Below, one piece after another: positions 1 through 64,000 of a stretch of DNA of 64,000 bases. The translations under genes and the position numbers were made by a program. The notes under the pieces are model-generated. The model worked only from the letters and a program-made list of their open reading frames with translations, searched no databases and was not told where the DNA came from. Position 1 is the first letter of the stretch, and each line of letters opens with the position of its first letter. The stretch is from Bolinopsis microptera (taxonomy: Eukaryota > Ctenophora > Tentaculata > Lobata > Bolinopsidae), in contig NC_087072.1 of NCBI RefSeq assembly GCF_026151205.1, positions 7,922,084 through 7,986,083 of the forward strand. Reading direction: 5' to 3'.

Positions 1-3000
1 GAACTTGAGCACGACTCCATGTATTGGAAAGATCTTAGTGAAATGCTAACAAGATGTGAGTACATTCAACAAGTCCATATCTCACCATCAAAAACCAATG
101 AACTAAAAGTATTTTCATTAAACGTACGATCTTTACACAAAAACATAACTCATTTCCGAGAAGAACTTCACACGTATCTAAATTACGATATACTGAGTTT
201 CAATGAAACAAACTGCACTCTAAGTAAGCTACCTAACGGTATTAATGACATACTTCTAGAGGGATTTCATGAGCCGATAATACAGGAACCAGCACGTACA
301 TCTGGCCGTGGGGGTGGACTGGTGTTATACGTAAATAGACAGGTATGTACAGAGGAGCAAATAGAACAGTACAGGCCAAACTTCAGCTGTGAGGAAGAAA
401 CAAGTGGTGAATTCCAATTTATAAAAATCCACAACTGCAAAGGTTTTAACAAGACCAAGCTACTAATCAATGTTTACCGCTCACCATCGCGTAATGTTGA
501 TAAGTTCATGAAACTGCTAGATAATGTACTTAGAAGCCTAGACAGGCACTCACGTAAACACATTTTATTCACGGGTGACTTCAATATTGATCTAATAAAA
601 TACGATAAGGACGTGCACAGTCAGAACCTCGTTGCAACTTTTGAAAACTACGGTTTCGTTCAAATGATTTCAAGGCCCACCAGAATTACAGACCACAGTG
701 CAACACTCATAGACCACGTGTATTCTAATGACATCAAGAACACGGCAAGTTGTCAGGTGCTTACTCTACACGTATCAGACCACCTAGCCACCCTTACTAC
801 GCTTCTACTTGGGGACAGAGAGGGGCCATGCGGGAGGGTTACAAGTAAAAAACCAAGTATCAAACAGGCACGGAGATTTGGCGAAGCTAACAATGCTAAA
901 TTTCAAAGTTTGATCGAAAGTGAGGACTGGTGTGAAGTGAGTTTACACGAAAATTGTGAAGTACAGTACGAAAAATTTTGTGAAATTTACACCAAACATT
1001 ATGATGAGGCATACCCCTTGAACAAATCCAGGCCGCGGCGTAAAAATGAACGAAGAGATCCAAAACCTTGGATTCTTCCCTGGCTAGAGGATGCGTGTGC
1101 GCGAAGGCATAAGCTCCACCACCTAAAAATCACAACTTCAACCAAGGCCAATGATGAAGCGTATGAAAAAATTGATAAATTCTGCAACAAGCACATTGAC
1201 TTAGCTAAAGCAAAATATTATAAGAAATTTTTTGACGAGCATTGTGAGAACTCTAAAAAGCAATGGCAAATGATTAACACGCTGTTGAACAGGAAGTTGA
1301 AAGAAAAAAATTCTATAAAACTGAAAGGCGACGACGGATCTATTATCAGCAATGGCACCGATGTTGCAGCAAAATTTAACAACTACTTCTCAAATATAGC
1401 TTCAAACATTAAAGCACAGATCAGTGCTAGACAAACTTTTGATCCTGGGGGTTTTAGTAGATATCTTAGGAACCCAACATCGAATTCGATGTATCTTAGG
1501 CCGGTAACACCAACTGAGGTGAGTGAGGTGATTCTAAAATTTAAGAATAAGTCAACACTGGATACCAAAATTGGGCCGATGAAAGTCGCAAACCATGATA
1601 GCAAGTTCACCGGTGTGATTTCTACTATCATAAACTCATCATTTACACAGGGCATATTTCCAACTGCTCTTAAAACTGCACGCGTAATCCCTATCCACAA
1701 GGGAGGTAGTAAGACAGATGTCACTAACTATAGACCCATATCTCTTCTTAGCTCATTCTCAAAAATTTACGAAAAGTTAATGCACACTAGAGTCCTTGAA
1801 TTTCTTGATAAAAACGGCTCTCTGTTCGAAAGCCAATACGGCTTTAGACCGGGGATGTCATGCGAGCATGCTCTTCTTAATGCACAGAACTCTATCCTTC
1901 ATTACCTTGGCAGGAAACAAATTGCGGTGCTCCTACTGTTAGACTACTCCAAAGCTTTCGACCTACTTGAACATAAAATTTTGCTTAAAAAACTGGAACA
2001 CTACGGAATTAGAGGTATAGCACTAAGCTGGTTCGACTCCTATCTTCACGATCGTCATCAGTTCGTCACAGTCAACGGGGTTGATTCCAGTCCCAAGACG
2101 ATCAATTATGGTATTCCTCAAGGCTCTATTCTGGGCCCCCTACTCTTCGTCATCTATATAAACGACCTCCCCGGAATCTCAGACCTGGCCAAGTTCATAC
2201 TTTACGCCGATGATGCAAATATTATAGTCACGGGCCATAACGAGGAAGAAATTCAAAGTAAGCTCTCCATGATTGCAACACTTCTAGCGAATTGGGTAAG
2301 TAGCAACGGGCTTTCTTTAAACCTGAAGAAGACCCACTATATGGTCTTCAGTAACCGTAAAGTAGATTATTCCAAAATAAGTCTCAACATATCTGGAACA
2401 AACATTGAACGGGTTACTGAGGCACGGTTTCTGGGTGTTATAATTGATGAGAAACTAACATGGTGTAAACATATCACAGCGGTAAGATTAAAAATGAGTA
2501 GGTACATAGGCATCATGTTCAAATTAAAACGACATCTGCCCCTAAAAGTGCGACTACAACTTTACCATAGTTTTATTGAGGCACATGTTAACTACTGCTC
2601 GTTAGCCTGGGGATTCGCGGCAAAATGTCACATTGAGACATTATTCCGTAGACAAAAGCAAGGAATGCGGATGGTTATGCCAGGATATGTAAATTACTTT
2701 TACAAAGACGGCAAATTGCCAGCTCACACCAGAGAAGCATTCTGCAAATTTGAGATTTTGACAATACACGGCATCATCGTAAAGAATGCGCTTACATTAA
2801 TGCACCGCATGAAGCACTTTCCTAACACAGTACCTGTATCAATTAGAAATTTGTTTCCAGATAACATACCCACGCATGGTTCAAATCATGAGAACAGTAG
2901 CGAATGGCTAGATACGTACAATAACCGATGTTTCAAAGCATCCATCTTTTTTAAAGGACCTTTACTAGCTCTAACAGACACCAACAAGAACATCACGTCC

Positions 3001-3147
3001 CTACCTAGCTTATTTTCAATAAATATTTACAAATCGAACGCAAAACGCGTGCTTCTTGAGCAACAGTCAACACTAGCTAACTCAGAGGACAGCTGGCCAG
3101 CATTTCTGCTACACAACGTACCTGGTTTGAGGAAGTCCAATAGATGA
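1..3147 (+). CDS. LINE ORF2: apurinic-type endonuclease plus reverse transcriptase (5' partial)
   Basis: The frame is open from base 1; the first ATG is at 19, but translation probably begins further left. From that ATG (1042 residues): an endonuclease/exonuclease/phosphatase domain at about 30-265, with FNETN near residue 62 and GDFNIDL near 186; a linker; then a reverse transcriptase at about 550-830, with YRPISLL, QYGFRPG and the catalytic YADD box at 729-732. The C-terminal 200 residues are basic and of the kind found after the RT thumb in CR1-like proteins. The product would nick target DNA and copy element RNA in the nucleus by target-primed reverse transcription. It differs in sequence from the LINE at 27-34 kb, which has YADD replaced by FADD and an added zinc finger, so two LINE families are present. 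Confidence 0.93.
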   Translation, partial: ELEHDSMYWKDLSEMLTRCEYIQQVHISPSKTNELKVFSLNVRSLHKNITHFREELHTYLNYDILSFNETNCTLSKLPNGINDILLEGFHEPIIQEPARTSGRGGGLVLYVNRQVCTEEQIEQYRPNFSCEEETSGEFQFIKIHNCKGFNKTKLLINVYRSPSRNVDKFMKLLDNVLRSLDRHSRKHILFTGDFNIDLIKYDKDVHSQNLVATFENYGFVQMISRPTRITDHSATLIDHVYSNDIKNTASCQVLTLHVSDHLATLTTLLLGDREGPCGRVTSKKPSIKQARRFGEANNAKFQSLIESEDWCEVSLHENCEVQYEKFCEIYTKHYDEAYPLNKSRPRRKNERRDPKPWILPWLEDACARRHKLHHLKITTSTKANDEAYEKIDKFCNKHIDLAKAKYYKKFFDEHCENSKKQWQMINTLLNRKLKEKNSIKLKGDDGSIISNGTDVAAKFNNYFSNIASNIKAQISARQTFDPGGFSRYLRNPTSNSMYLRPVTPTEVSEVILKFKNKSTLDTKIGPMKVANHDSKFTGVISTIINSSFTQGIFPTALKTARVIPIHKGGSKTDVTNYRPISLLSSFSKIYEKLMHTRVLEFLDKNGSLFESQYGFRPGMSCEHALLNAQNSILHYLGRKQIAVLLLLDYSKAFDLLEHKILLKKLEHYGIRGIALSWFDSYLHDRHQFVTVNGVDSSPKTINYGIPQGSILGPLLFVIYINDLPGISDLAKFILYADDANIIVTGHNEEEIQSKLSMIATLLANWVSSNGLSLNLKKTHYMVFSNRKVDYSKISLNISGTNIERVTEARFLGVIIDEKLTWCKHITAVRLKMSRYIGIMFKLKRHLPLKVRLQLYHSFIEAHVNYCSLAWGFAAKCHIETLFRRQKQGMRMVMPGYVNYFYKDGKLPAHTREAFCKFEILTIHGIIVKNALTLMHRMKHFPNTVPVSIRNLFPDNIPTHGSNHENSSEWLDTYNNRCFKASIFFKGPLLALTDTNKNITSLPSLFSINIYKSNAKRVLLEQQSTLANSEDSWPAFLLHNVPGLRKSNR

Positions 3148-22745: not shown

Positions 22746-23804
22746 TTAAGTACATATCGGCTTTGTAGGACAGTCCTCTGTCATCCCAACAGCAGAAATC
22801 ATAAACTCCCATAAAATGTCATTGAAGAAGCAGTACATCCCTCCACCACGCCTAAATTGGGAGCTCATTCTGTTAACACCTCCAAAACACAAGTATTTAT
22901 ACTGTTCATCAGCAGATATGGCCCACTTAGAGTGGTCTTGAGTCTCTTTATAATCCAATTGATCAGCATAAAATGCCATGTAGACGATATTCTTAACAAA
23001 GTAATTATCAGTACAGTTGGAGTGCAACTTACTTTCGCCATTCTGCCAAGTTTCAGTGTAAAGACTCATTGGTGGATCAAAATGTGGACTTATCAAAGCA
23101 TCAAATATATCAGCTCCGAATGAGCCATTTTTGTTGAATGCAGTTAAAATTGTACTGTCAGTCAAGAATAGAGTTTCGATTTTAGAATGGGGATTCCCAT
23201 TAGCAGGCAAAGGCTCTCCTTTGATAATTTGCTGGAGGTTTTCATATTTCCCGTACAGATCCTCTTTAATCTTGAAGTTGTAAACAAAAGGCCACATCAT
23301 CCTGATTTGATAGAGCAATTTGGATAATTCACTAATCGGCAGTGTAACACAGAAGAAATGTTGCCCATAATAAATGCCTGTGTGTGGAAAACCATATCCT
23401 GCTGTATCATTGTAAGGAAAGTGAGGTGTACTGTGGATCAGGTAAACAATTCTTGTTTCATCAAACAGAACAGTTCCTTTTGTGTGACCATGATCGAAAG
23501 ATTTTCCCCCACCAGGCACTTCATCATTAAACATGAAGTAGTTCAAAGTTCCATTGACAGAGTGATCTGAACCAGGTATATAGACACTCTCCATGGTCAG
23601 TTTAATGGGATTCGTGTCAGAACTTATTTCAACATCATGATGAATTAGGTATGGTTTCTCTTTGTCAGCATAGAAAAGTTTCTCAGAGTGAGGAGGTTTA
23701 AACATGAAGTACCATGGAGTTTCTCCTCTCAAATTTCTGCAGGACAAGCTTGAACAAACTTCTACACTAACCAGGAAGGTGAGTGCAGCTAGAACTGTTC
23801 TCAT
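22746..23804 (-). CDS. dnase2: Lysosomal acid deoxyribonuclease, DNase II family, intronless
   Basis: 352 residues, close to the roughly 360 of animal DNase II. A signal peptide ends near residue 20; the mature protein keeps the family blocks RGETPWYFMFK, GHTKGTVLFD, LIHSTPHFP, YGQHFFCVTL, DHSKWAIS and GGVNRMSSQFRRGGG. The two HxK catalytic motifs of the phospholipase-D-like fold are present as H107-T-K109 and H291-S-K293, so the enzyme should be active. The family cleaves double-stranded DNA without metal at acid pH in lysosomes, degrading DNA of engulfed cells and food. There are several N-glycosylation sequons. The gene has no intron although its neighbours do, and it lies 671 bp upstream of, and in the same direction as, the septin gene. 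A TATTTTATA-like element lies about 35 bp before the ATG. Confidence 0.96.
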   Translation of the reverse strand: MRTVLAALTFLVSVEVCSSLSCRNLRGETPWYFMFKPPHSEKLFYADKEKPYLIHHDVEISSDTNPIKLTMESVYIPGSDHSVNGTLNYFMFNDEVPGGGKSFDHGHTKGTVLFDETRIVYLIHSTPHFPYNDTAGYGFPHTGIYYGQHFFCVTLPISELSKLLYQIRMMWPFVYNFKIKEDLYGKYENLQQIIKGEPLPANGNPHSKIETLFLTDSTILTAFNKNGSFGADIFDALISPHFDPPMSLYTETWQNGESKLHSNCTDNYFVKNIVYMAFYADQLDYKETQDHSKWAISADEQYKYLCFGGVNRMSSQFRRGGGMYCFFNDILWEFMISAVGMTEDCPTKPICT

Positions 23805-27247: not shown

Positions 27248-28915
27248 ATGAACTTTGATCTCTGTGATCTCCACCTGCAACATCTCCTGATTAAAGAAGA
27301 CGGGTTGAAGTCCCATCAGGCTCAAATGAAAAAGTTAGAAGCAGCACTGTCCTCATCATCCAGCTCTGCCACAGACCCTCTAGAATACAGCATAGAGCAG
27401 CTGAACCAGCAACTTGCACAGCTTCAATCGCATCAAACTGCAGCATCTGAAACACCTGCTTGCACTGCCACTCATGAGCTACTTGAGAGAGTCTCACAAG
27501 AACTGAGTGAGCATTCCACCCAACTTAACAACTTAAGCAGTCAAATACAGGATTCTAAAGCATCTCCTCAATCTAAAGCACCACCTGTAGCCCAGTACCC
27601 CTCTCCTCCAGTGCAGGCTCCTCTCCTCTCCTCTCCCCTACAACCTGAACAACCTACCCCTCACTTACCACATGATCAGGTGCCAGTAACTGAAACCAGG
27701 CCAGATTTCATTCTGACTACTGAATCTGAGAAAATTATTGCCTTTCTTCAGTCATGTTCTTTCAAACAAGAGAACGGTCACTCCGTCACTTCATTTGGCA
27801 CCCCCTACCACTACATGGGTTCTAAATCTTCAGAAAATGTGCCACCAATTCCTGAGGAACTCAAACCATTATTTGATGAAATGAACAAAGTACAAACTGA
27901 ACTTTTTAACAAGAGCTACCCGGATCAGCCCCACCTGACGGCCCCGGTTATCAATTCATGTCTCATCAACAAGTATGATGGCTCTGATAGTCACCTGCCT
28001 AACCATTCAGACCGTGAAGTGACCATCCATCCAGAATCATCAATACTTACTTTGTCTCTCGGCCAGATCTGCAAAATCAAGTTCACTGAATGTGACTCTA
28101 GAACTGAATCCTCTCTTGAATGTCATGATCGCTCCCTGTACATAATGAGCCGTAGATCACAAGAAGTTTACAGTCATATGATTGAGCGTGGCTCAATATC
28201 AGATGGTATTAGGTACTCGCTGACCTTTCGTGCTGTTAGCTGGACAAATAAAAATTGCACAAGCTTACATGGTGATTCAAACACAGGCTTCTTGCGTTTT
28301 GGGTCTGACAAGAGGGGTACCTTTGGCGAACTCATGCCAGGTCAAAAGTTCTGGGCTCCCAGAATTGAAGATATCAACCCTGTGTCCTGCATGGGTTACG
28401 CCAATGTGGTGCTCCACTGTGGGATCAATGACGTGAGACAGCCGGATATTAGTTGTGAGAATGATGTTGCTGATTGTTATAATAAACTCAAGCTGAAAAT
28501 TAAACAAATTAAGAATCTTAGCCCCAGCACTAGAGCTGTTTTTGTTTGTAAACTGCTGCCTACTAAGGACTTAGAGCTGAATGTAAAAGTTAATGCATTT
28601 AATAGACTTATTCATTTCGACCTGCTCCCTACATGTAAGGATGTCGTATGTGTTAACGGTTTCGAACAGTTTGCCAGCAACTATGGTCTTGCGGACGAAC
28701 TGTCGAAACAATTCGACAGACATGGTCGACTTGATACACTTCATCTTAACAAGTTAGGGGCAAGAGTCCTTGCTGGACTCATTAAACAATCTGTATTTAT
28801 TAGGTTAAATGGCGGAGAAGACAGAAGAAAACACATCGGCAAAGTCAATGGACGGCTATACAGCAACGTGGCTAGTGGCCCGCCTGCACTGCAGCGGAGG
28901 GGACGGAACGGTTAA
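27248..28915 (+). CDS. LINE ORF1 with AlkB-like 2OG-Fe(II) oxygenase and SGNH/GDSL hydrolase domains
   Basis: 555 residues. Residues 1-100 are helical and glutamine/serine-rich, probably a coiled coil. About 103-145 is a proline-rich linker. Residues about 180-330 have the AlkB-family layout: YHYMG at 187-191, the iron-binding HxD as H253-S-D255, distal H310, and RYSLTFR with R322 and R328 six apart, as in AlkB where these bind 2-oxoglutarate and substrate. The HxD-to-His distance of 57 matches AlkB. Residues about 338-515 have SGNH/GDSL blocks: GDSNT (S344), GIND (N394, D395) and DTLH (D496, H499). SGNH esterase domains are known in ORF1 of CR1-like elements; the AlkB-like domain in front is the unexpected part. 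The upstream in-frame stop (27239-27241) sets the start at 27248. Confidence 0.85.
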   Translation: MNFDLCDLHLQHLLIKEDGLKSHQAQMKKLEAALSSSSSSATDPLEYSIEQLNQQLAQLQSHQTAASETPACTATHELLERVSQELSEHSTQLNNLSSQIQDSKASPQSKAPPVAQYPSPPVQAPLLSSPLQPEQPTPHLPHDQVPVTETRPDFILTTESEKIIAFLQSCSFKQENGHSVTSFGTPYHYMGSKSSENVPPIPEELKPLFDEMNKVQTELFNKSYPDQPHLTAPVINSCLINKYDGSDSHLPNHSDREVTIHPESSILTLSLGQICKIKFTECDSRTESSLECHDRSLYIMSRRSQEVYSHMIERGSISDGIRYSLTFRAVSWTNKNCTSLHGDSNTGFLRFGSDKRGTFGELMPGQKFWAPRIEDINPVSCMGYANVVLHCGINDVRQPDISCENDVADCYNKLKLKIKQIKNLSPSTRAVFVCKLLPTKDLELNVKVNAFNRLIHFDLLPTCKDVVCVNGFEQFASNYGLADELSKQFDRHGRLDTLHLNKLGARVLAGLIKQSVFIRLNGGEDRRKHIGKVNGRLYSNVASGPPALQRRGRNG

Positions 28916-28920
28916 CAGGT

Positions 28921-31900
28921 ATGGTTAATCGTGTTCAAAAGGAAATTTGTAGTCACTGTCTGAAGAATATTGGATTAGGGCTTCCCCACTTTGAATGTTT
29001 TAACTGCAATAGTATTCTCCATGCCAAATGTTTTAATCCTTCCAAAGCGCAAGTTATCAATGACAACTTTTACTGCAACGAGTGTAAACATTCCATATCT
29101 AAAAAATATAATCCTTTTAAAGTAATGACCGATCCTGAAGTTAATGACTGTGACCCATGTATCCAAAAGATGTCCGATGCTTTGGAAAACTGTAGATCCT
29201 ATACAATTAAGGACTTTAACACACATATCAAACCGTGTTTTGCAAGCAACTGCTCCACGATTTTCCAGAACATAGATGGTAATAAAACAAATTTTGATGC
29301 CTTTAGCATGGAACTAAACCGATTAGCCGAAAAATTTAAAATTATTGGACTTGCTGAAACCAATATTGGAATAGAGGAAAGCACTGTCTACCATCTAGAG
29401 GGGTACAATTGTTTCTATCAGGACAAACATATCAATAAAGCAAAGGGAAGTGGAGTAGCATTGTACTTAAAGGACGAACTTAACGGAGTTGTAAACGAAG
29501 AATTATCATGGGTAACCAAAAATCTTGAAACCCTATTTATTACTATTCAACATGATGAACCTGTACATGTAGGAGTACTGTACCGTCCTCCTAGTGGGGA
29601 CTCCTCAGAGGCACTAAATGAACTTAGAAAAATTATTGAATCATGCCCAAAAAAGAATGTTTACATACTAGGTGACTTTAACATTAATCTCCATGATGAA
29701 AACAGTAAACTTGTTCAAGACTTTGAAAACCTTATTCTAGGTCTAGGTTTATCACCACTTATTTCTACTTCCACGCATCATAAACCAGGATGTAACGAAT
29801 CATGCATTGACAACATACTCACCAACAACATAGAGAACTCTATCTGCTCTGGAACAATTAGTACCTGCATCAGTCACCATCATGCTGTATTTAACATATT
29901 CAACTCACCCCTAGTCAGTACTGAGGTTCATGAACAAAACTATTTCCAGTACTATGACTACTGTGCAAAAAATGTGGACAAATTTGTGGAAGTACTAGAC
30001 AATGAATTAACTAGTGATCCACCAGAAGACTTCAGTAATTTTTTCACTGTATTTAATCATCAACTAGACAGTGCATGTAAACTAAACCAGCCTAAGTGTT
30101 CTAAACGTACTGCTAAGAATAATCCATGGATTACATCAGGCCTGATTGCCTCTATAAATAGAAAACATGAGCTTTATGACCTGTGGAAAAAGGCAGTTAA
30201 GAAGAAATGCCTCAACGCCTCTTCAACCAACCATGCAGACTGTCTTACCCTTTGTTTTAATTGTACAAATAAAGTAACACGTCATGAAGAATTTAAGGCA
30301 CACCGGAAGTTATTAAACCACCTTATTAATTCTGCAAAACGTAAGTATCATGGTGTTAAGATTACAGAATGCGCTGGAGATAGTAAGAAAACTTGGCAGA
30401 TAATTAATGAACTGCGTGGTAAGAAGAGACGTGAGATTAAACCTAACTTTGTGATAAATAACGAGCGTGTGATTAATCGGCGTGTAATTGCAAATGAGTT
30501 CAATAAATACTTTGCCTCTATTGCAGCTAACTTGAACGAAGCTTACTCTGGTGACTTCTTAAGAATAAATTCCCTGCCGTCATTTACTGATTACCTGCCC
30601 ACATCAGTTACGTCCAGTATTTTTCTTTGTGATTGTGACTGTATTGAGATTAAAGAGATCATAAACGAACTAAAAAACGGGAAATCTAGTGACATACCTA
30701 TTCATGTGATCAAGAAGTCGTGTCAAATTACTGCACCGTACTTAGCTAGATACTTTAATAAATGCATGCAAGAAGGCCACTTTCCCGATGAATTAAAAAC
30801 TGGGAGAATCAGCCCCATTTACAAAAAAGAAGATGAACAGCTTTTAGAAAACTATAGACCAGTATCAACTCTACCTGTATTCGGGAAAATTCTAGAAAAG
30901 TTAATATATAAGCGGCTCTATAGTTTCCTTACTTCCAAGGGTATAATACATGAAAACCAGTTCGGCTTTAGAAAAGGACACTCCACCAGCCATGCACTGA
31001 ACTACTCTGTAGAACATATAGAATCGTTAATTAGTAAAAAGCAACATGTCCTAGGGGTCTTTATCGATCTCTCAAAAGCCTTTGACACTCTAGACCACTG
31101 TAAACTAACTACAAAGTTAAACAACTATGGCATAAGAGGAAATGCTCTGAATCTTATCTCTAGTTATTTGTCTAATAGGAAACAATTTGTAAACGTTTTG
31201 GATACCAAATCTGATGAATTACCGGTTGAATTCGGGGTCCCTCAGGGTAGTGTATTAGGACCTCTACTTTTCCTACTGTACATCAATGACATATGCAATA
31301 TAACTAAAAAGGGTAAATTTGTCTTATTTGCAGACGATACTAATATATTTGTCGCTGCCGATTCGAGAAATAAAGTATACGAATTGGCTAATGAAGTACT
31401 ACAGGCCGTAAACAAGTATATGGGAGTTAACCTACTGCACATTAATGTAAAGAAGTGTTGTTACATGTATTTTTCTCCCTCTAAACGTAATAATAACGAA
31501 TTAGATGCCGATATAGATAGCCAAAACTTGTCCATTAATAACAAAATAATTAAACGTGTAAGTCAGACAAAATTTCTCGGAGTAATCATGGACGATAAAT
31601 TGAGCTGGAAACCACATATATCATCCCTCAACAAGAAACTAAGAAGTGCTTGTGGACGTATCTACCGTATTAAGAAATGCTTACCAGAATCACTATATAA
31701 GCAAATATATCATTCCCTCTTTGAATCACACCTAGGTTATGCTATTTCTGTCTGGGGAGGTATTCCCAATAATCAGTTAAAACCGCTATTTATTACTCAA
31801 AAGAAGTGTATCAGGATTCTATTTGGAGACTATGAAGCTTATGTAGACAAATTCAAGACATGTGCTAGAGCAAGACCAATTAATTCTCAACGTCTAGGAT

Positions 31901-32265
31901 CTGAATTCTATGTTAAAGAGTCCACTAAGCCTCTATTCACAAAACATGAATTACTTGTTACAGAGAACCTGTACCGATACCGTTGTTTAATGGAACTTTT
32001 CAAGATCATTAAGTCACGAGTACCAATTTCGTTATACTACTTATTCAACATATCAAATAGGAAAGATAATCTGTTCATTACACCCTCTCCAACTAATCAA
32101 TTTATTTATAAATCTGCATGGCTTTGGAACGAATTCCGTAAAGTTGGCCCGTTAAATTTCACCTCCACATGCGGATCTGTCAAGAATTTACTTAAACAGT
32201 CACTTCTAAGAGCTCAAAACCGGTATGGAACTGAGTGGTGTGACAGAAATTTCACTGAATTCTGA
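28921..32265 (+). CDS. LINE ORF2: PHD-like finger, endonuclease, reverse transcriptase
   Basis: 1114 residues starting five bases after the ORF1 stop, in another frame, which suggests coupled re-initiation. The N terminus has a C4HC3 pattern (C10, C13, C26, C29, H34, C37, C52, C55) typical of a PHD finger. The endonuclease domain spans about 105-330, with GLAETN near 143 and GDFNINL near 251. The reverse transcriptase spans about 600-900: YRPVSTLP, QFGFRKGHST, FGVPQGSVLGP and FADD at about 802-805. A basic C-terminal region follows. The frame is intact throughout. PHD-like fingers in CR1-group LINEs have been suggested to read chromatin; here that is inference. The product would nick target DNA and reverse-transcribe the element RNA. 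Confidence 0.93.
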   Translation: MVNRVQKEICSHCLKNIGLGLPHFECFNCNSILHAKCFNPSKAQVINDNFYCNECKHSISKKYNPFKVMTDPEVNDCDPCIQKMSDALENCRSYTIKDFNTHIKPCFASNCSTIFQNIDGNKTNFDAFSMELNRLAEKFKIIGLAETNIGIEESTVYHLEGYNCFYQDKHINKAKGSGVALYLKDELNGVVNEELSWVTKNLETLFITIQHDEPVHVGVLYRPPSGDSSEALNELRKIIESCPKKNVYILGDFNINLHDENSKLVQDFENLILGLGLSPLISTSTHHKPGCNESCIDNILTNNIENSICSGTISTCISHHHAVFNIFNSPLVSTEVHEQNYFQYYDYCAKNVDKFVEVLDNELTSDPPEDFSNFFTVFNHQLDSACKLNQPKCSKRTAKNNPWITSGLIASINRKHELYDLWKKAVKKKCLNASSTNHADCLTLCFNCTNKVTRHEEFKAHRKLLNHLINSAKRKYHGVKITECAGDSKKTWQIINELRGKKRREIKPNFVINNERVINRRVIANEFNKYFASIAANLNEAYSGDFLRINSLPSFTDYLPTSVTSSIFLCDCDCIEIKEIINELKNGKSSDIPIHVIKKSCQITAPYLARYFNKCMQEGHFPDELKTGRISPIYKKEDEQLLENYRPVSTLPVFGKILEKLIYKRLYSFLTSKGIIHENQFGFRKGHSTSHALNYSVEHIESLISKKQHVLGVFIDLSKAFDTLDHCKLTTKLNNYGIRGNALNLISSYLSNRKQFVNVLDTKSDELPVEFGVPQGSVLGPLLFLLYINDICNITKKGKFVLFADDTNIFVAADSRNKVYELANEVLQAVNKYMGVNLLHINVKKCCYMYFSPSKRNNNELDADIDSQNLSINNKIIKRVSQTKFLGVIMDDKLSWKPHISSLNKKLRSACGRIYRIKKCLPESLYKQIYHSLFESHLGYAISVWGGIPNNQLKPLFITQKKCIRILFGDYEAYVDKFKTCARARPINSQRLGSEFYVKESTKPLFTKHELLVTENLYRYRCLMELFKIIKSRVPISLYYLFNISNRKDNLFITPSPTNQFIYKSAWLWNEFRKVGPLNFTSTCGSVKNLLKQSLLRAQNRYGTEWCDRNFTEF

Positions 32266-34120
32266 TTATGAAGTGATATTCATTTGCCCGTTATTCCCAC
32301 TTAAGCACTTACTGACTGACAAGCTTATCTATGAATACCATGCTTGAATTTAGGTAAACAACATACAACTCATTCCCAGTTACGCTGAGCGCAACCGCCG
32401 AATGACACAGTAATATGGGCACGCGCATAGCATTGCGCGCCGATGCTGTCTGCGCGTTGTCGGCCGAAACTTGGGAAGTTCCCGCTCTAATATTCAGACG
32501 ACAGTGATGACTCATTAAGAGCACTAATTTCGACCACTTTCCCGGTCGAGCCATACCAAATCAAACTAATTGACCCACGTGTATAGCCAATGTCCTGGCG
32601 GTGCTGAGCCGATGTAAAACTCTTCTGTAAACTCTTTTGTCTCTTGTAACTTGTTTATATTTTATATTTAAGTTATACTGTGTACTGTGTACAATAGTTA
32701 TAGCGTATATATAGTGTGTAGTGTGTAGTGGTTATTTTGTTGTGACGTGTCACTTTATATTTTGCTACCAACGTCAGCCTTGACTTACCATTTATTGTAA
32801 TTGGTACAGCATATATCAAAACTAAAACACTGTTTTCGATCTGACGGGTGATGGGCTCTCTCTGATGGGACACGGTTCTAGGGGGTACCCGGGGTACGAG
32901 TTAACGAATAGTGTTCGTGTCCTTCCACAACCCCCTCTCATTGTGTTTTTGACGGAGGAGAAGCCTAGTTCATCCGTCTGCATCGCTTAATCGAGTTGAA
33001 AATTTAGCCAATAACAAACTAAATTACATGTTATACTGATAGCAGGTGTAGAGTTTATAACATACAAATTCTAAATTTTTGACGGCTGACGATGGTAAGT
33101 CGCTATGTTTAATTCGGGACTTTTATAGTCTTAAGTCTTGGAGCTCAAAATGTCTCGTGCTGTGGGCCGTATAAACGGCGCACACCACCGCCCCGCCTTA
33201 CTGCTTACATTACTTCATGGTTGCGGGCGGAGCTGGTGCCGTTTGTCTCGGCCTCGAGTGGCGAGTGCTTGCCCATCGAATACACAATTGAAACACTAAT
33301 TATTTATTGGAATTCTACAGTTTCCAAAACGAAGTACGAGGATATATTAACTTTGAGCTTTGTTTTGGCGACTGCTTCATCGATGGGCGAGTAGGTATTT
33401 GTTGTTTAGCAGTGTTGAATATTGGAGCAATTATATAATGCAATGTATATCTCCATCATAATATAGGCTAGTGTAAACATATATAATCAATAATACAAAC
33501 AAATGGTATTAGTAACTCGCTAGATTATAGATGTTATTTAAACACATATGTTTACGTCAATTATTACTAAAATTAATATTCTTTTTGCTTTAATATAATT
33601 ACATGTCACATAATGGATTAGTTGAATGAAACGTGTGCTACAAATGTCTACGCCTCACGCAAAACTGCGTACCGCTTAGTACTTCATGCTTGAGCGGTAC
33701 TGCGGTTGACAGTGGCGCGCACTCAATTTAATCACAAATAACGAGCGCGCGGTTTTTTGGAATCTCTCCATTATTATATTAATTAGGTCGCAGTGTTCAC
33801 GGCCTGTACTGCGTGAACGACAGAAATATCTTTTAATTATTTGCTTCTGAAATTTTGGCTCTAGAAATTAAGAAATATGACATGTAATTGTAAGATATGT
33901 ATTGACATGTATTGTAAGATAACAATTAAATAGATCAGATCATGTGCGCGGCGCCTACAGCTGACCTACGAATTTCTGAACAATTTTAAATTGTGGCTGT
34001 GTGCGCGGCGTACTGTATATGTGTTTGAAATTGAAATTTGAATTTATTTATGAATATAACATTATGTATTGATTGTTTTGTGGTAAATAAAAATTTTTCT
34101 TTCCTAAATTTTTCTTTCCT
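32266..34120 (+). other. 3' region of the LINE
   Basis: Non-coding, with patches richer in GC (32400-32470, 33150-33280) and an inverted pair TTGCCCATCGA / TCGATGGGCGA near 33269 and 33378. The symmetry of the host motif array implies that all of it came in with, or inside, the LINE. A second small insertion within it is possible. Confidence 0.55.
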
Positions 34121-36065
34121 AGCTGAAACCCCTCTTAAGAGTTTTTGACTATTTGCGATAACACACTATGTCTCAACCGACGTGGAGCAAGGTTTTTGCA
34201 ATGTAGAAATTTGTAAATTTTTAATTTATTAGCTTTTCATAATGCTTTTGTTTAGATCTGTAAGATTTTTTTAGCTTGGTAACTCTTACTAACTCTATTT
34301 TGAGTACTGAAACGGATATTTATATTCAGTACACTTCTCTCAACCCTGTGGAGCCCAAAATGGTTAAAAATTTGCCAACTTTTAAATTCTTTCTGGGTTG
34401 AGATAAAGTGACTTCTGTGATTTACATCTTGACTCCTGTATCTATATTTTTACCGTTGATGCAGACTCTTTAGTCGAGAACAGCCTATCTCAACCATGTG
34501 GAGCAAAAAGAGGTCTTCCTTTTGATCAATCGAGACAACTTTTAAGTGCTTCATGGGATATTATTTTTATTCATTCTAGAGAAAATATGTTATAATATTG
34601 GTGGTCAATAAACTTACTTCACGGGAACTATTCAGTGCTCAACCTGTGTGGAGCAGAGATGATTTCTGTTGTATTAGATTTTCGAAGCTCACTACTTCAT
34701 TCTACAGCCGCATGCAAGAGAGATCTTCATCAAATGTTAGGCAGTTGAGGAATCCCGTACATGACATGTCATTTCTAGCTCTGCTCCACTCTGGCTGAAC
34801 AGTTCTGGAACATCAATCATGGCCTAATCATGGTAAGAAAAGTATTTAAAGTATATCAGTAAACTTTAAATTGCATTACGTACAAATTGGCTACAGATCG
34901 ACCATCATGGAGACTCTTTTTACCGTAGAAAAGCCTGTTGCTCCTCACGGTTGAGCATATTGTCTTTTTATATGGTGGCATATTTCTCTTTAAAGGACAC
35001 AGTACTACATACATCAACAGCTTCTTAAGTATTGATGATATCATTCCTCCTTTATCCTAATATAACAACACTGATCCTTACAAATAGTTGTGTTATCAAT
35101 CTATCATTCCATTCTGCTCCTCTCTGGTTGAGCCTATTAAATACAATTTTTCAATCTGTTCTGCTAGTTATTTATTATAAAAGCTAAAATACTCATTCTA
35201 ATTTCTCATCCAAGTCATATCAGCCGATGAGGAGTCATGTTATGCTGTAAAAGTCCTCTGCTCCACATGGTTGAGCATTACTAGGTTTATCAGCAGTTCC
35301 AAAGAATAGAGTCAGGGGGTCTGCACATAATCACAAGAAAAAATGATATTTTTATGGCCTGATTAGATGTATTTATCGTTTTTAATCACACTCACTTTCA
35401 AAACTCAGTTTCTTCCCAATCAGTTTTCCCAACTAAGGTATAATAGTTTCGTGCTCCGCATCGGTTGAGCAAGGTGTACCATTATTGATAATGTTATCTG
35501 GTGCGTATTCCTTTAAACTAAGATTTTGTGAAAAGACGGAGATTCTACTGTAATGTTTACCCCTGGTTGAGACGAAAAATATGAGGATATTTCGACTGCT
35601 CCACACTGGCTGAGGTCCATTTTATGATTTGGCAGTGAAAATATTTTGCAATTAACGTCCAGGATCTATTTGTTAAATGGCGATCAAAATAGTCAAAAAG
35701 CATAGATTTTATTGGGGTGCTCCACACTTTTTTGCTCCACATCGAAAACCAGGTCATAACTTTTGCTCCACATGAGATAGAAACTTCATTCCAAAGAATT
35801 CAGAAAATTCGGAATCTTCAGATGAAAATGATATCAGAAAGGATTAAATTGCTCTTTATCAACCTGCTCAAAAATTTAAATCAAAAAGTAAGCAAAATGG
35901 GCAAAGCAAAATTGACAATGACCATATATATGCGGTTTTAAGAATTATATAATGACATTGAACGAACTTATTTATTGCAAATTTAAATGATTGCTAGTAT
36001 TTTATGTATTTGTTTTCACTTCTGCACGTTTAGGCAGTTGCTCTTGTGACCAGAGTTTTAGAGTT

Positions 36066-46770: not shown

Positions 46771-47788
46771 TTACTGCTTTCCCACGGTCAACCCCTTCAA
46801 TGAACTCATCTTTCTCATCGCAGCATAATCAGGAGCGATAGCACTTTCATTGTGAAGATTTAATGACTTAATCCGCTCAAATTGTCTCTCCACCTGAGTA
46901 GTTTCTGATAGTTCTTCTTCGTCTTCTTCGTCTTTCTTCTTTTTTAAAACCAATACGCCACACTGGACACACAGTGCAAGAGAGAAGAATAAACATACAG
47001 CTGATATCGCCACTGTCAATGTTTTCTTGGCTCGATATCCTAATGGGGATTTGTTAACGGTTAAAAAGTTAATATAAGCTTACATAAAATGAAGAATGAA
47101 ATTTAATTATATTGACATGGAGATTGTTTCAACTTATTATCATGCCACAATTATTAAAAAATATCTTACCAACGGTATCGTGAACTTTGTAGCTGTCATA
47201 ATCGATGTAATAATCGATTGGTTGGTTCTTGTACGGGACAATTTCACATCTTGAACACTCATCACCGCCAGTTCTGTGTTTGTTATACCAGTCCCCGTGC
47301 ACTTTGATCGTTTCCATGACTTCAGTCTGCAAGCTGGACACGTGACAAGAATACTCATTGTGGTATGTGTACTGAAGTTGCGAGGGTAAAAGTTTCAGTG
47401 TGAGAGTCAGCGTTTGTAGTCCTTCTGTGTCACTAAGTTGTTCAGTGACTCTATCTATCCTATGATGACCCACTTTCCAATAGCCTTTTAGAAACGGTGG
47501 TCCAGTTGAAGTGCATATCAGATTAACAGCTTCCATTTTGACTTCCATGGTGAGAGAGATTGTGGGTTTTACTGGCTGGGGAGTAATCTGCTCCTTTTTT
47601 TCTGTTTCATCTGACTGGTCTTGTCTCTTTTTTGGTGCGATGACCAGTCTCGCGGTTGTAGGTTTAGTGGTATTCACAGGTGCTGAGGTTGAGAAATCAA
47701 TTTCAACTGGGTGAGAGTAAGTTGTGTTCTCAGAGGCAGCAGCGCCAAGCAAGACAACCAACAAAATCAACATGGCATAATCAAACAA
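46771..47788 (-). CDS. Short Ig-domain single-pass membrane protein, two exons
   Basis: Exons 47170-47788 and 46771-47039 give 295 residues (290 if the second Met at 47773 is used). Order: signal peptide (LILLVVLLGAAAS), a Thr-rich stretch, a charged linker APKKRQDQSDETEKKEQITPQ, one Ig-like domain (cysteines in NLICTST and EYSCHVS, with YWKV between), and a membrane-proximal segment with CSRC. Exon 2 supplies the transmembrane helix, a KKKKDEEDEEE juxtamembrane block and a cytoplasmic tail with PDYAAMRKM. The tail tyrosine is in a YxxM context, the known binding consensus of PI3-kinase p85 SH2 domains. It is a paralogue of the gene at 61883-64000 with near-identical Ig coding sequence but lacks that gene's N-terminal Ig and lectin-like parts. 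Ligand unknown. Confidence 0.8.
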
Positions 47789-52529: not shown

Positions 52530-53210
52530 GATGATTCATGAAGTGGAGCGATGATAATAAAGTTTAATAACTAATTGAAATTATCAAACAATTCAAATGG
52601 AATGTAAGGAGTGAGTAGGAAATGGAAACAAGCAAGCGATAGATGAGGTACTGGGTCAACGGGCCATAAAATACAAATACAAATGAACGAGTGATATGTA
52701 CGCAATTAGTAGAGTAGTAGGATCTCCTTGAGAAAGAAGCAAAAAAATTACCATTCACTTCGTAGATCTGTTATCACATGCTGATTTTTTTGCATATATA
52801 TACTAGGTTTTTTAGATAAACATTACTTGTTCAGACCACCAACTCATCTGAAGTATGAATATGTAAATTAAGAGCAGATCTATTATAATCTTGATCTAAA
52901 ACCTGATAACATATTTCAAATTTCACGGTTCATGGCGTTACAACGACAATTAATCAATCATACCGAAATTGTGAACCATGATGGATAATTATTGATGATG
53001 TAGGCCACGGCAAGGGCCAAAAACGAGGATTTACTGATTAGATTATTTAAAGAGCAAAAACGATAATTGCAAGTCTAATCCTAATTTTTACCCAGTTCCC
53101 ATACACTCCCCCCAACGTGTGGGATTTTGGTCATGCTCTTCTGCAAACACGTCTGATTTCATCTCAGCTCATTTTGGTCGTTTATCCTTTATATTTTGAT
53201 TTGATTGACC

Positions 53211-54755
53211 ATGGAAGAGGTCTCAGTAAATAATGAGCCGCCACAAGATTCGGTTTACAAAGAGTCTCTGACGATCGAACAAGTTGTAGATAAAACTGTA
53301 AAAAGATTGAATCTCCCACTGTTTCTTCTCTACTGGGCTGCTTTGAGCACAGCACTTAATTCTGGTGCTGTAGCATACGTAACTGTTATCACGGGCAACA
53401 TTCCTTACAAGGACTGGAAGTGCACTTCGGATAAATGTGCATCTCTCCACGCAGAAATGTCTGAGAAAGAGGACTTCTTCACCCAGAAGACAATGTGCGA
53501 TAATGAAATGGAGGCAGGGATGGACTTCATCTGGACGACAAGCAAGATAACTTTTACCACTGATTGGAATATCTACTGTAAGGAAGAAAGCAGACTGGCC
53601 ACAATATCAGGCTCTTTTTTCATCGGAGCCATTGCTGGCTTACTGTGCTCCACCGGACTCTTTGATAGAATAGGACGGAAAAAGGGTGCGATTGTAGGCG
53701 GGGTGATAACGATAGTAGCGACAGCAGCAAGTTGTGTGGCTCCTAACTATCAGGCTCTCCTTGCGTTTAGGATAATATCTGGGTTCGGACTTCTCATCAA
53801 CTACACTGGTGTATATTGCTGGGTCATAGAGTACGCTCCTATGGGTCTAAGGAATGTGGCCGCTGGTTTTTTCAATATTTCCTGGTCCATAAGTTACCTT
53901 ATCTTAGTGCTGCTGGGCTATCTGATTGATGATTGGAAGTATTTGTACCTGGCTCTGACTGCAGTTTGTGTCATCTCCACTGCTATGTTCTTTGTGGTCC
54001 CGCTCCCTGAGTCTCCCAGGTTTCATTTAGTCAGGGGTATGGAGAAGGAGGCCAAAGAAAACATTATTTCTTTTTTCCAGATCACAAGAAATGAGTTTTC
54101 GTTTGACAGTATCAATCTTGTTTACGAAGAAAGGGCCCAGAATTACCTGGAGCAATTAAGTGATTTTAAGAAATATCCCTGTCTGCTGAAAAGAGCTCTC
54201 CTTTGTATGGCCTGCTGGTTCCTTGTGTCTCTTATTACCTACGCGTACACAGTGGGTTGGAGTAAAATAGGGTCAGACCTTTTTACCAGCTATTTGTTCG
54301 CTGCTCTTGGTGATGCTTTCGGTTACGTGTCAGCAATCCCTATCTGTCGACTTCTCGGCCGAAAACGAGCAACAATCTGCCTGTTTGGAGGAATAGCCGT
54401 GATGAACTTCTTCGCAATGCTGAACGTGGATATCACGGACACCTGGACGATCGAGCAAATAGCCAGTTTACTGGGGAGTGTAGCCACCTCCGGCACCTTC
54501 TCCATGGTGTATCTGTACACGGGGGAGCTAGCTCCTACTTCCCACCGGGGTATGATAGTGTGTCTCAGTTCCAGCTGTGCTAGATTAGGCAGTATTTTCG
54601 GGGCGTATGTGAGCCTCCTTTACGGGGTGACCGATAGGAGAGTACCTCTGGCACTGTTCTCGGGTTTGTCGGTCTGTGGATGTGTGGCGGTCCTTTTCCT
54701 GCCTGACACTACTGGGAAAGGGATACCAGAGACACCGAAAGATGTTGTTAATTAA
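53211..54755 (+). CDS. SLC22-type organic ion transporter (MFS), intronless
   Basis: 514 residues from the ATG at 53211, which sits in a good context (GACCATGG). It has the organic cation/anion transporter layout: an N-terminal tail, TM1 (about 35-60), a large extracellular loop (about 62-125) with several cysteines, the MFS signature GLFDRIGRKKG between TM2 and TM3 (148-158), PESPRF after TM6 (about 266-271), and LGRKRA after TM8; about twelve membrane segments in all. The family moves organic cations, anions or zwitterions such as carnitine across the plasma membrane; the substrate cannot be read from sequence. The gene has no intron, unlike most neighbours, so a retrocopy origin or intron loss is possible. 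The frame is intact. Confidence 0.93.
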   Translation: MEEVSVNNEPPQDSVYKESLTIEQVVDKTVKRLNLPLFLLYWAALSTALNSGAVAYVTVITGNIPYKDWKCTSDKCASLHAEMSEKEDFFTQKTMCDNEMEAGMDFIWTTSKITFTTDWNIYCKEESRLATISGSFFIGAIAGLLCSTGLFDRIGRKKGAIVGGVITIVATAASCVAPNYQALLAFRIISGFGLLINYTGVYCWVIEYAPMGLRNVAAGFFNISWSISYLILVLLGYLIDDWKYLYLALTAVCVISTAMFFVVPLPESPRFHLVRGMEKEAKENIISFFQITRNEFSFDSINLVYEERAQNYLEQLSDFKKYPCLLKRALLCMACWFLVSLITYAYTVGWSKIGSDLFTSYLFAALGDAFGYVSAIPICRLLGRKRATICLFGGIAVMNFFAMLNVDITDTWTIEQIASLLGSVATSGTFSMVYLYTGELAPTSHRGMIVCLSSSCARLGSIFGAYVSLLYGVTDRRVPLALFSGLSVCGCVAVLFLPDTTGKGIPETPKDVVN

Positions 54756-55722: not shown

Positions 55723-57026
55723 TCAAACGGAAGTATGCCGAATAAGTCTGATAGAGCTGTCTGGCCCATCTTCTTTCTGGCCACTTTGTTCCTGAGAAGT
55801 TGCTCCTTCTGTCGCCATTTTCGCTACCATCCCAACTTCTGCTTTACTTTCTTCGTTTGCAACTCGTGTTGATGCTGTCGTTTCTCCTGAAAAAATAATT
55901 GTTTAAATATTGGTGATTAAATAAGCAATAACCGTCACATGTTTACTCGAGCTTATCACATTACCATACATATTACATATTATGTAAATGCTCTAGTACT
56001 TAGATTTATAGCTAACAACTGAATTTTGAACAAAGCAAAGATGAGGAAGTATTTACCTTGAGAAGTCCGAGTAAGTTGGGAGAGGTTACCGATGGAGAGA
56101 CACGGTAATAATTTCTTTATCAGCTTCGTCTTTAAGAAATCTCTAAAGCTGGCTACGGTGAGGCCATACGTGAAGAAATTTGCCATAACGTTAGTGAACA
56201 GCACAGCTTCTGTCACTCTGTAGTACCTGTTGAAAAACGGCCCTGGCTCCTCGGAATCAGTTTCTAGGAGAGGTCCAGCGATGAAGTAGACAGTAATGGG
56301 AAGGAAGGATATGGTGAAGATTGTTGCAGTGATGACAACAGCCATGGTTCCTTGCCAGCGTAGATTTTCCTGCATTCTTTTGGCCACCCTTCTTGCACTT
56401 GTCAGCAACAGGATTGTTGCGATGATGATGATTATATTGGGAGTGAGGTAAGCCAGCACGGTGGTGATCGGCATCAGTGTGTTCCATATCTCGGAGGAGT
56501 ACCTGTAGTTCCACATGTACGTCCTGCAGTCAAACACAACATCGTCCATGTCGACGAGAAGGTGCTGCACTGGAACAGTAAGTGACAATATCCAGAGTCC
56601 AACACACAGCTTGTGTGTCTTCATTTTGGACCAGCTCCGTGCTCTCAAAGGATATCTCACCAGAAGAAACTTGCCTACTGACATGGCACCTATGAGAAGT
56701 GGGCTCGCAGAGAACACCCAGTAACCGATGAAGAAGCGAATGAATTTGATGACCTCATTAGAACCACCGCTGTCATAAATCAGTGACACTACTACAGGTA
56801 AGAGCATGCCTACAGCAGTGAACATATCACAAACAGCTACATGCTGGATGAACACTACGACTGTCCTGTGTAGACGGAAGGCTTTGTACTTTATGGAAGC
56901 AACGAGGATTGTGGTGTCTCCCAGAAGAGAAGATATGACTACTAACGTCAGCCAACTCCCATAGATGTATCTCTCAGCCTCATTCTTTATCCCAAACAGA
57001 TCGCAGTCATCGTAGTTGGTAGACAT
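55723..57026 (-). CDS. Class-A-like G-protein-coupled receptor, two exons
   Basis: Exons 56057-57026 and 55723-55886 join in frame to 377 residues. The first exon holds all seven membrane segments (about 24-45, 56-80, 98-120, 140-158, 184-210, 228-251 and 271-293); the second adds a hydrophilic, serine/glutamate-rich cytoplasmic tail. TM2 keeps the sodium-site aspartate (D67 in VAVCD). Several class-A hallmarks are altered: TM1 has D37 for the usual Asn, the DRY box is GKF (118-120), the TM3 extracellular cysteine is absent though one is in loop 2 (C167), and NPxxY is NFFTY (283-287). This resembles the many orphan rhodopsin-like receptors of cnidarians and other invertebrates. Ligand and G protein cannot be inferred. 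Reading past the exon 1 donor adds 25 residues, an artefact. Confidence 0.87.
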
Positions 57027-61882: not shown

Positions 61883-64000
61883 CTAATCGAAAAGACCAAG
61901 TTCCCTTTGTCTCAACCTCAAAATCTCATCTGCAGTCAACTCTTTTTTAAGTCCTGTTTTCTCGGCTTCTTCCTTAGCTGCAGCTGCAGCTGCACGCTCC
62001 TCTTTGTAATTCTCTCCGTATCGTTTCCTCCTCATTTCATCGTAGTCAGGATTGTAGGTCGCGGGGTACATACCATAGTCCTTGTACCGATTCACTGTCC
62101 TCTCCCATTTGGTTACTTCTGACAGTTCCTCCTCCTCCTCTTCCTCCTCCTCCTCTGCATTCACTTTCTTTTCTTTTTTGTAGAGTCTAAGAAGGTAATA
62201 CTGGAGGAAACACATGAGGAGAAGGAGGCCACAGACTGATCCTAGCGCTATTGTCATCCTTTTTTCTTTCTTTTCTGAGAATTATTTTTGTTAATTTATT
62301 TGCATATATTTAACATTGACATATCATTCTCAATCACGAACATTTTTTAATTTATTGGATACAAGACTGTAGGCAAGGATATATAATTATATCAATGATG
62401 TGATTCTTATAATAATTAGCTATCTAACTTATTAAAAACGCCTAATAACCTGCGGTCTTCAGCTTCTCTGCCTGTTCAAGGGCTGCCGCTTCTGCCCTTA
62501 ATCGAGCTTGACGGGCTTCCTCTTCAGCTGCTGCTCTACCACCATCTCCACATTTCGAACAGTTGGGATCTTTTTCTCTGTAGTCTTCCCCTCGTACTGT
62601 GATAACTTTCTTAATTCCCCTGCTATCAGGCCCCTGATTGGACGTACTGAACACTATACACTCGTAATTTCTAGTTTGTAGATATGATGGTGTAATTTTC
62701 AGAGTTAGGGTCAGCGTTTGTAGTCCTTCTGTGTCACTCAATTGTTCAGTGAATCTAACATTTGGTAGGTCTCTATTGTAGTAGAACCTCTGATAACCCA
62801 CTTTCCAGTAGCCCGTCAAAAACGGTGGTCCAGTTGAAGTGCATATCAGATTGACAGTTTCCATTTTGACTTCCATGGTGAGAGAGATTGTGGGTTTTAT
62901 TGGCTGGCAGATGGAAATATAGTCAATGGACACGCCATTGACATCATCCCCGATACTTATTTGGGTTAAATTTTTGAGATCTTCTGGGGGTATCCTGATG
63001 GATCTCAGTTGGCCAGTCTGTTGTGAAGTTATTATCTCTAACGATGCAATCTCAGGATTGTACCTCAGTTGGAGCTTCAGTTCCGTACTATCCTCCAACC
63101 AGAGCGGGCTTTCGTTGTAGCCGTCATTGAAGGGGTACTTTTTGGTTCCGTCGACGAACCAATCTGCCCTAGTTTGACCGATTCTCCTGTTTGTAGTTTT
63201 TTTGATGATAACTTCAATTGAGCCTTTTTGGTGAAAGGAATCTTCCGGTTGGTTGAGTGATAAGACCTTGAATGTTTCAGTCTGGGTCTTTATCTTGGAA
63301 TTTACGATCTCTTGTGTGGGGTCTATTTTAGTAGCTATCTGAGAGGGCGCGGGCGGGGTCGCGTCGGGTGTCATATCTTCCTGGTTCTCTAATCTTTCAT
63401 CGGGAGCTCCATTAAAATCTGGGGCTTCTTCTGAACCCTTGATATCCCCGCTCCTTCTTTTGGCAGGTTTGTTCATGTTTCCCCTTCTTTTTTTGTGAGA
63501 GCTCCAATCTGTATTATCCCAGGATGAACCATATTCGTTACCCCGGTTTAAGTTATTATAACGATTGTAGAAGATGTATCGTGCCTTTATCGTGAGCACT
63601 TCGTTCATCAGGCGACCTTTTGGGATGGATAGCACATCTCCTGCCCTATATTTATCTTGATTCCATCCATAGATATGATCTACTTTCAACATCTTACAGA
63701 TACTTCTTTCCGCAATTGGCGTGGTTGTAGGTTTAAGGGTTGTTAATGTTGAAGCATCTTTTGAGGTCTGGTTATTTGTGGCAGCCGGATCTGCTGTGGA
63801 TACGTTTTGGTCATCATTCTGGTCTGGTTTACTTTGGGGAGTAATCTGCTCCGTTTTTTCCGTTTCATCTGCCCGGTCTTGTCTCTTTTTTGGTGTGATA
63901 ACCAGTCTCAGTACCTTGCCTTGCCGAGTATAAACTAAGCCTTTTCTTTTAAACCTCCATCTGCAGCTGTAGTTCCCCAGATCCATACTGCTGAAGTTCT
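61883..64000 (-). CDS. Large Ig-domain membrane protein with galectin-like segment (5' partial)
   Basis: Exons: 62450 to beyond 64000, and 61883-62274. The frame is open at the right edge (NFSSMDLGNYSC), so the visible N terminus is the end of an Ig-type domain. Then come the charged linker PKKRQD...TEQITPQ, a Thr-rich linker, and a region of beta-strand character from GDVLSIPKGRLM, interrupted by a basic/acidic insert (KKRRGNMNKPAKRR), to ISIGDDVNGVSIDYISIC, reminiscent of galectin-like lectins. A second Ig-like domain (NLICTSTGPPFL, YWKV, NYECIVF) and CSKC follow. Exon 2 gives the transmembrane helix (about MTIALGSVCGLLLLMCFLQY), a ten-glutamate run and a tail with NPDYDEMRRKRY, again a YxxM tyrosine. 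Paralogue of the shorter gene at 46771-47788. A cell-surface recognition role is inference. Confidence 0.8.

Follow-up and report, generated by a model that had tools for sequence, protein, structure and literature searches.

A ctenophore LINE ORF1 joining predicted AlkB dioxygenase and SGNH hydrolase domains, with related AlkB domains in Helitrons

Introduction

The type IV (esterase) ORF1 proteins of CR1/L2 LINEs, such as that of ZfL2-1, combine a coiled coil with an SGNH domain in which the S, G, N, H and D residues are kept, and the elements carrying them have two ORFs with endonuclease (EN) and reverse transcriptase (RT) domains (PMC3905857, PMC4120745). PHD domains are also known in the CR1/L2 lineages, in ORF1s and at the start of an ORF2 (PMC3905857, PMC4120745). 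A survey of 448 Jockey-superfamily elements limited esterase-type ORF1s to vertebrate groups, and the words 'AlkB' and 'dioxygenase' are absent from its text (PMC4120745); transposon esterases have also been shown from cnidarians and sponges (PMC3905857). A retroelement-encoded AlkB is described from orchid Ty3/Gypsy LTR retrotransposons, where it is ALKBH5-like, occupies an additional separate ORF, demethylates m6A RNA in vitro and is recent according to its authors (PMC9289625). RNA viruses of the Alphaflexiviridae, Betaflexiviridae and Closteroviridae likewise encode AlkB (PMC9289625), within their replication proteins, where it is thought to repair RNA. Accessory enzymes (GDSL, DEDDy) occur across different retroelement classes of bdelloids, in a paper whose text contains neither AlkB nor Helitron as a word (PMC5408684), and the accessible parts of PMC11294593 and PMC3750612 hold nothing on AlkB in transposons.

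Here we describe a LINE from a 64,000-nucleotide stretch (the window) on contig C1 of the 264.65 Mb genome of the lobate ctenophore Bolinopsis microptera. Its ORF1 resembles type IV ORF1s by the presence of an SGNH domain, and departs from their published layout, an esterase with a coiled coil or zf/lz and without AlkB, in that an AlkB domain precedes the esterase. In contrast to the orchid Gypsy AlkB, the Bolinopsis AlkB appears ALKBH2/3-like, lies in a LINE ORF1, is diverse and is joined to SGNH, and unlike human ALKBH2 and ALKBH3 and three host genes of the same genome (L026, L027, L028) it is SGNH-fused and carried by a mobile element. Viral AlkB structures are among its fold matches, whereas the replication enzyme that accompanies viral AlkB is unrelated. 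We know of no SGNH partner for an RNA-virus AlkB. Compared with the bdelloid case, sharing here seems to cross the boundary from retrotransposons to rolling-circle DNA transposons. AlkB is already known from orchid Gypsy elements and from RNA viruses, and so are ORF1s with an esterase or with a PHD domain, while the AlkB-SGNH combination and the sharing of AlkB with Helitrons appear to be new. Among the literature matches listed, mainly from the open literature outside Repbase, there was no report of AlkB in a LINE or a Helitron; one may exist, and these are the first of each among those matches.

Domain organization and conservation of ORF1

After its first codons, the frame read in the window covers the last three quarters of an ORF1 of 730 aa, which is comprised of a PHD-like finger, a coiled coil, AlkB and SGNH (Table 1). 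A preliminary description made from the window letters had proposed an AlkB-SGNH fusion in a LINE ORF1 spanning the whole frame. The LINE ORF1 domains are indeed there, and all seven motifs that it named (YHYMG, HSD, H310, RYSLTFR, GDSNT, GIND and DTLH) lie at the residues given; the start of the frame, however, is host flank, the copy is truncated relative to the 730-aa protein, and the finger and coiled coil of the full protein had been missed.

Table 1. Features of the element in the window. Residue counts cover the window and 267 homologs among the matches listed by three sequence searches, aligned letters only; broken copies are under-represented because the homologs were found by sequence search.
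Feature	Position	Strand	Remarks
LINE (non-LTR retrotransposon) copy, 5'-truncated	27265..34120	+	ends approximate
ORF1 frame in the window, 555 aa	27248..28915	+	first codons host flank
AlkB-type Fe(II)/2-oxoglutarate dioxygenase domain (predicted), residues 150-335	27695..28252	+	
HxD iron-binding motif, H253-S-D255	28004..28012	+	H 262/263, D 263/263
Third iron ligand, H310	28175..28177	+	261/261
RYSLTFR, 2-oxoglutarate-binding R322...R328	28211..28231	+	R322 259/260, R328 258/259
SGNH hydrolase domain (predicted), residues 336-520	28253..28807	+	
SGNH block I GDSNT, Ser344	28271..28285	+	S344 258/258
SGNH block III GIND, Asn394	28421..28432	+	N394 258/259
SGNH block V DTLH, Asp496 and His499	28733..28744	+	D496 245/249, H499 249/249
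ORF2, 1114 aa: PHD/C1-like finger, endonuclease, reverse transcriptase	28921..32265	+	
3' end: AAATTTTTCTTTCCT, 15-nt unit twice in tandem, without long poly(A)	34091..34120	+	

On residues 150-531, PF13532 (2OG-FeII_Oxy_2) scores 60.7 bits against a curated cut-off of 31.2, so that the profile match expected of an AlkB domain was found; 55 of 57 alignment members match it at E<=1e-3, and a Pfam scan of the whole 555-aa frame gave no PF13532 match. The predicted model matches AlkB structures and contains the double-stranded beta-helix fold, with about 21-24% identity in the alignments to ALKBH2 and ALKBH3. The solved relatives nearest to the AlkB profile are ALKBH2, ALKBH3 and then ALKBH8, while ALKBH5 and FTO are absent (best 60 of 213 structure-profile matches). 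The SGNH fold is likewise present in the model; the window sequence matches PF13472 (SGNH) with 14.6 bits against a cut-off of 32.9 (E 0.047), and 23 of the 57 members do so at E<=1e-3. AlphaFold, run on the 730-aa ORF1 with 23 sequences, scored AlkB-SGNH mostly >90, the coiled-coil helices mostly 50-83 and the PHD-like region 44-56. Because of this last score, and because PF00628 remains under its cut-off (E 6.1e-4; 5/57 members at E<=1e-3), the matches behind the PHD finger are weak. Together, profile and model support an ORF1 that joins AlkB and SGNH in one protein, both predicted enzymes, and thus an ORF1 with two predicted active sites.

The residues expected to be catalytic are almost invariant (Table 1), including the five AlkB ligands H253, D255, H310, R322 and R328 whose retention in related copies the preliminary description had put forward as a check, and nine catalytic residues are all intact in ten Bolinopsis copies including the window. 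The Gly of SGNH block II (G365) is kept in 260 of 261 sequences, and within AlkB N241 is found in 218/261 and Y243 in 229/262. The Glu of an HxDxE motif (E257; 262/263) is common to the transposon AlkBs, ALKBH2, ALKBH3 and the host ALKBH2/3-like genes, and E. coli AlkB has Asp there; its retention is a weak pointer to an ALKBH2/3-like class. Organism names are attached to 20 of the 267 homologs (18 Mnemiopsis leidyi, 2 Bolinopsis microptera), and the range may extend to other phyla.

The AlkB domain is under purifying selection. Between subfamilies, dN/dS is 0.12-0.15 in AlkB, 0.27-0.32 in SGNH and 0.26-0.31 in the linker/coiled coil; for the window against L016 and L017 the respective values are 0.14-0.15, 0.30-0.32 and 0.29-0.31. 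By this measure only AlkB stands out, since the SGNH ratio does not fall below the ratio of the far more diverged linker/coiled coil (dS ~1.4-1.6 versus 0.2-0.36). The fusion that had been read from the letters is supported by profile, fold and catalytic conservation and, for AlkB, by low dN/dS, and none of the three outcomes that the preliminary description had named as refuting it was observed. Among other AlkBs of the genome, dN/dS is 0.16-0.33 in Helitron-type frames, 0.12 in type B LINEs and 0.06-0.08 in type D LINEs, where dS is near saturation for the type B value (1.97) and for two of the type D pairs (~1), and the pair L032-L031 is too close to be used.

The element and its copies

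ORF2 begins 5 nt past the ORF1 stop and contains RVT_1 (E 2.3e-38) and Exo_endo_phos_2 (E 3.3e-8), preceded by a finger that matches C1_1 (E 9.1e-4) and PHD (E 0.015), both under their cut-offs. Near-identical copies (96-99% identity) lie at dispersed genomic sites, most with the ORF1 and ORF2 frames open. Specifically, L010 and L011 have ORF1s of 730 and 728 aa with a common start and open ORF2s of 1129 and 1128 codons, while in L012 and L015 ORF2 is broken into two frames. In all seven other near-identical copies examined, similarity is lost upstream of 27265, so the ATG at 27248 is host DNA. Other copies begin farther upstream than that of the window, several at different points, which fits 5' truncation by target-primed reverse transcription. 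On the 3' side similarity stops at 34118-34130 in 6/6 flanks compared, and similar short tandem tails are found in six other copies compared. EN and RT in ORF2, variable 5' truncation and a common 3' end identify the element as a LINE. Candidate target-site duplications are a 12-bp one in L010, which is AT-rich and repetitive, and 5-7 bp in six others including the window, within chance. The element is probably CR1/L2-like, as judged from the short tandem 3' repeats, the PHD-like finger and the lack of an RNase H match in a Pfam scan of the element. Four Mnemiopsis gene models also combine PF13532 with EN or RT domains. Origin of the motifs from a host gene or by chance was ruled out by the profile, fold and copy evidence.

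AlkB domains elsewhere in the genome

The Bolinopsis genome contains at least 150 matches to PF13532 (150 scored out of 587 candidates); among those listed a single one has an inner stop, and most lie in long open frames. Three belong to host ALKBH2/3-like genes, namely L026 (by tree), L027 (ALKBH3, E 2.5e-39) and L028 (ALKBH3, E 1.6e-27). The ALKBH3-like genes at C2:9636400 (L027) and C5:22266892 (L028) have the domain in one open frame each. The preliminary description had placed AlkB in one LINE; other LINEs and Helitrons of this genome carry it too, and transposon copies may swell the number of 'AlkB genes' counted when ctenophore genomes are annotated. The type B LINE (L032, 646 aa, C5) has AlkB followed by SGNH according to Pfam, with EN and RT downstream (L057). 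The type D LINE (L042, 777 aa, C7) has AlkB according to Pfam, an SGNH-like C-terminal stretch recognized by motif only (HDSQ, GVND, DQLH), and EN and RT downstream (L058).

A 3388-aa Helitron-type frame at C10:16874382-16884548 carries SGNH, AlkB (L047), DUF6570, the Helitron Rep and a PIF1 helicase (L056). Judged by its sequence matches, this element is a Helitron, since PF14214 (Helitron_like_N, E 3.3e-22) and PF05970 (PIF1-type helicase, E 6.8e-22) occur in one protein. Six of the 41 genomic Helitron Rep matches coincide with an AlkB match in contig, strand and frame length, in frames of 3388, 3366, 3321, 3226, 2459 and 2225 aa (one on C10, five on C3/C9/C12). Of these six, L030 and L047 were scanned for SGNH and contain it by Pfam, and in L049 block I of SGNH can be recognized. 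The domain order is AlkB-SGNH in LINEs versus SGNH-AlkB in Helitrons. In the Helitron-type proteins L030, L040, L047 and L054, AlkB is surrounded by long linkers, both Ala/Pro-rich ones and repeats of the TEGVSSSGPVSLKP type, which vary between copies.

Besides the window and L039, the 34 AlkB domains placed in a tree came from 19 homologs chosen among the 267, two type B and three type D LINEs, three Helitron-type frames, three host genes and two human proteins; P0149 was dropped because it misses the motif pattern, and L054 is labelled Helitron by protein similarity only. The transposon AlkBs fall on one side and the human and host ALKBH2/3 on the other (94/85; 81/81 with E. coli AlkB in the tree). 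The Helitron AlkBs group with type A (87/86), within a group of A, B and Helitrons (98/91), and type D is outermost among transposon AlkBs (98/91), which may represent a separate acquisition. In AU tests on groups picked after an earlier tree had been inspected, and hence post hoc, separation of all LINE AlkBs from Helitrons was disfavoured (p 0.028), and that of types A+B from Helitrons was not rejected (p 0.167). Separate capture of a host AlkB by Helitrons, with Helitron AlkBs placed beside human and host genes, was also disfavoured (p 0.024) in the same post hoc test. These domain phylogenies moderately favour a passage of AlkB between the two kinds of element, in either direction and once or more, rather than a separate capture from the host.

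Possible function of the AlkB domain

We hold at about even the chance that the four-part ORF1p of this LINE uses AlkB to clear m1A/m3C from its own RNA and cDNA and SGNH to act on lipid or acyl groups, with the Helitron AlkB working likewise. ORF1p would oligomerize via its coiled coil and coat the element RNA, from which AlkB, with Fe(II) and 2-oxoglutarate, would strip methyls of the Watson-Crick face (m1A/m3C type); nascent single-stranded cDNA would also be demethylated inside the particle. Such removal would keep the template readable and the reverse transcriptase unblocked. SGNH may act on lipid or acyl substrates, perhaps bringing the particle to membranes, a role that has been proposed for ZfL2-1. 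A single-stranded intermediate is common to LINEs and Helitrons, and the Helitron AlkB would serve the same purpose on the single-stranded DNA intermediate. In OTTR, m1A hinders the RT (named R2 RT there), AlkB removes m1A and m3C, most 3' tRNA halves are captured more and intact tRNAs change modestly (PMC12140624); the elements would supply natural RT-plus-demethylase pairs, a combination that biochemists at present assemble themselves when copying modified RNA (PMC12140624). Repair or protection of the element RNA, as already suggested in the preliminary description, is plausible. The recurrence of AlkB in transposons hints that these elements have to rid their genomes of chemical marks or of damage, and suggests that methylated or alkylated bases may hold back transposition in a lineage that branched early among animals.

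AlkB could instead be a counter-defence enzyme that erases a silencing methyl placed by the host (m6A in RNA, 6mA in DNA, or regulatory m1A). We consider this possible but on the unlikely side, as ALKBH2 and ALKBH3 come first in the profile search, HxDxE is nearly invariant, whereas ALKBH5 and FTO to our knowledge are without its Glu, and a shallow literature search found no ctenophore data on such marks. The orchid Gypsy AlkB is a precedent for an eraser of this kind (PMC9289625). It is improbable that AlkB and SGNH act on host molecules such as chromatin proteins, tRNAs or lipids and so render cells permissive for transposition, since the nearest solved relatives repair nucleic acids. PHD fingers are known as histone readers and the substrate of some AlkB relatives is tRNA or protein, and both the sub-threshold PHD-like finger and these relatives speak for such a role.

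If AlkB were an inactive nucleic-acid-binding scaffold, it would stand in for the usual RNA-binding domains of ORF1; neither RRM nor CCHC families appear in the Pfam results for ORF1 and its relatives, so something else must bind RNA, and the esterase turnover of the ZfL2-1 ORF1 is low (PMC3905857). However, for each of H253, D255, H310, R322 and R328 there is no more than a single exception among the 259-263 sequences aligned, and binding alone would not require all five, which makes a mere scaffold very unlikely. The genome does contain host ALKBH2/3-like genes, but there is next to no chance that we are dealing with a host gene or with a captured passenger instead of part of a working transposon, given the dispersed near-identical copies with mostly open frames, their differing 5' truncation points and common 3' end, EN and RT directly downstream, and the Mnemiopsis gene models. 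A broader proposal, that ctenophore LINEs and Helitrons share a portable AlkB and SGNH cassette, kept because the germ cells of these animals methylate or alkylate transposon nucleic acids, is a tentative one that we rather doubt; if true, it would imply a nucleic-acid-methylation arms race across class I and class II elements.

Neighbouring features of the window

Another LINE ORF2 (1042 aa, EN and RT, RVT_1 E 4.6e-35), apparently of a different family, lies at 19-3147 on the + strand. Host genes encode a DNase II (22746-23804, -; E 1.1e-77), an MFS transporter (53205-54755, +) and a rhodopsin-class 7TM receptor (55980-57026, -). The frames at 47129-47788 and 62442-63986, both on the - strand, contain a nearly identical stretch (PTISLTMEVKME.VNLICTSTGPPFL) and are perhaps paralogs.
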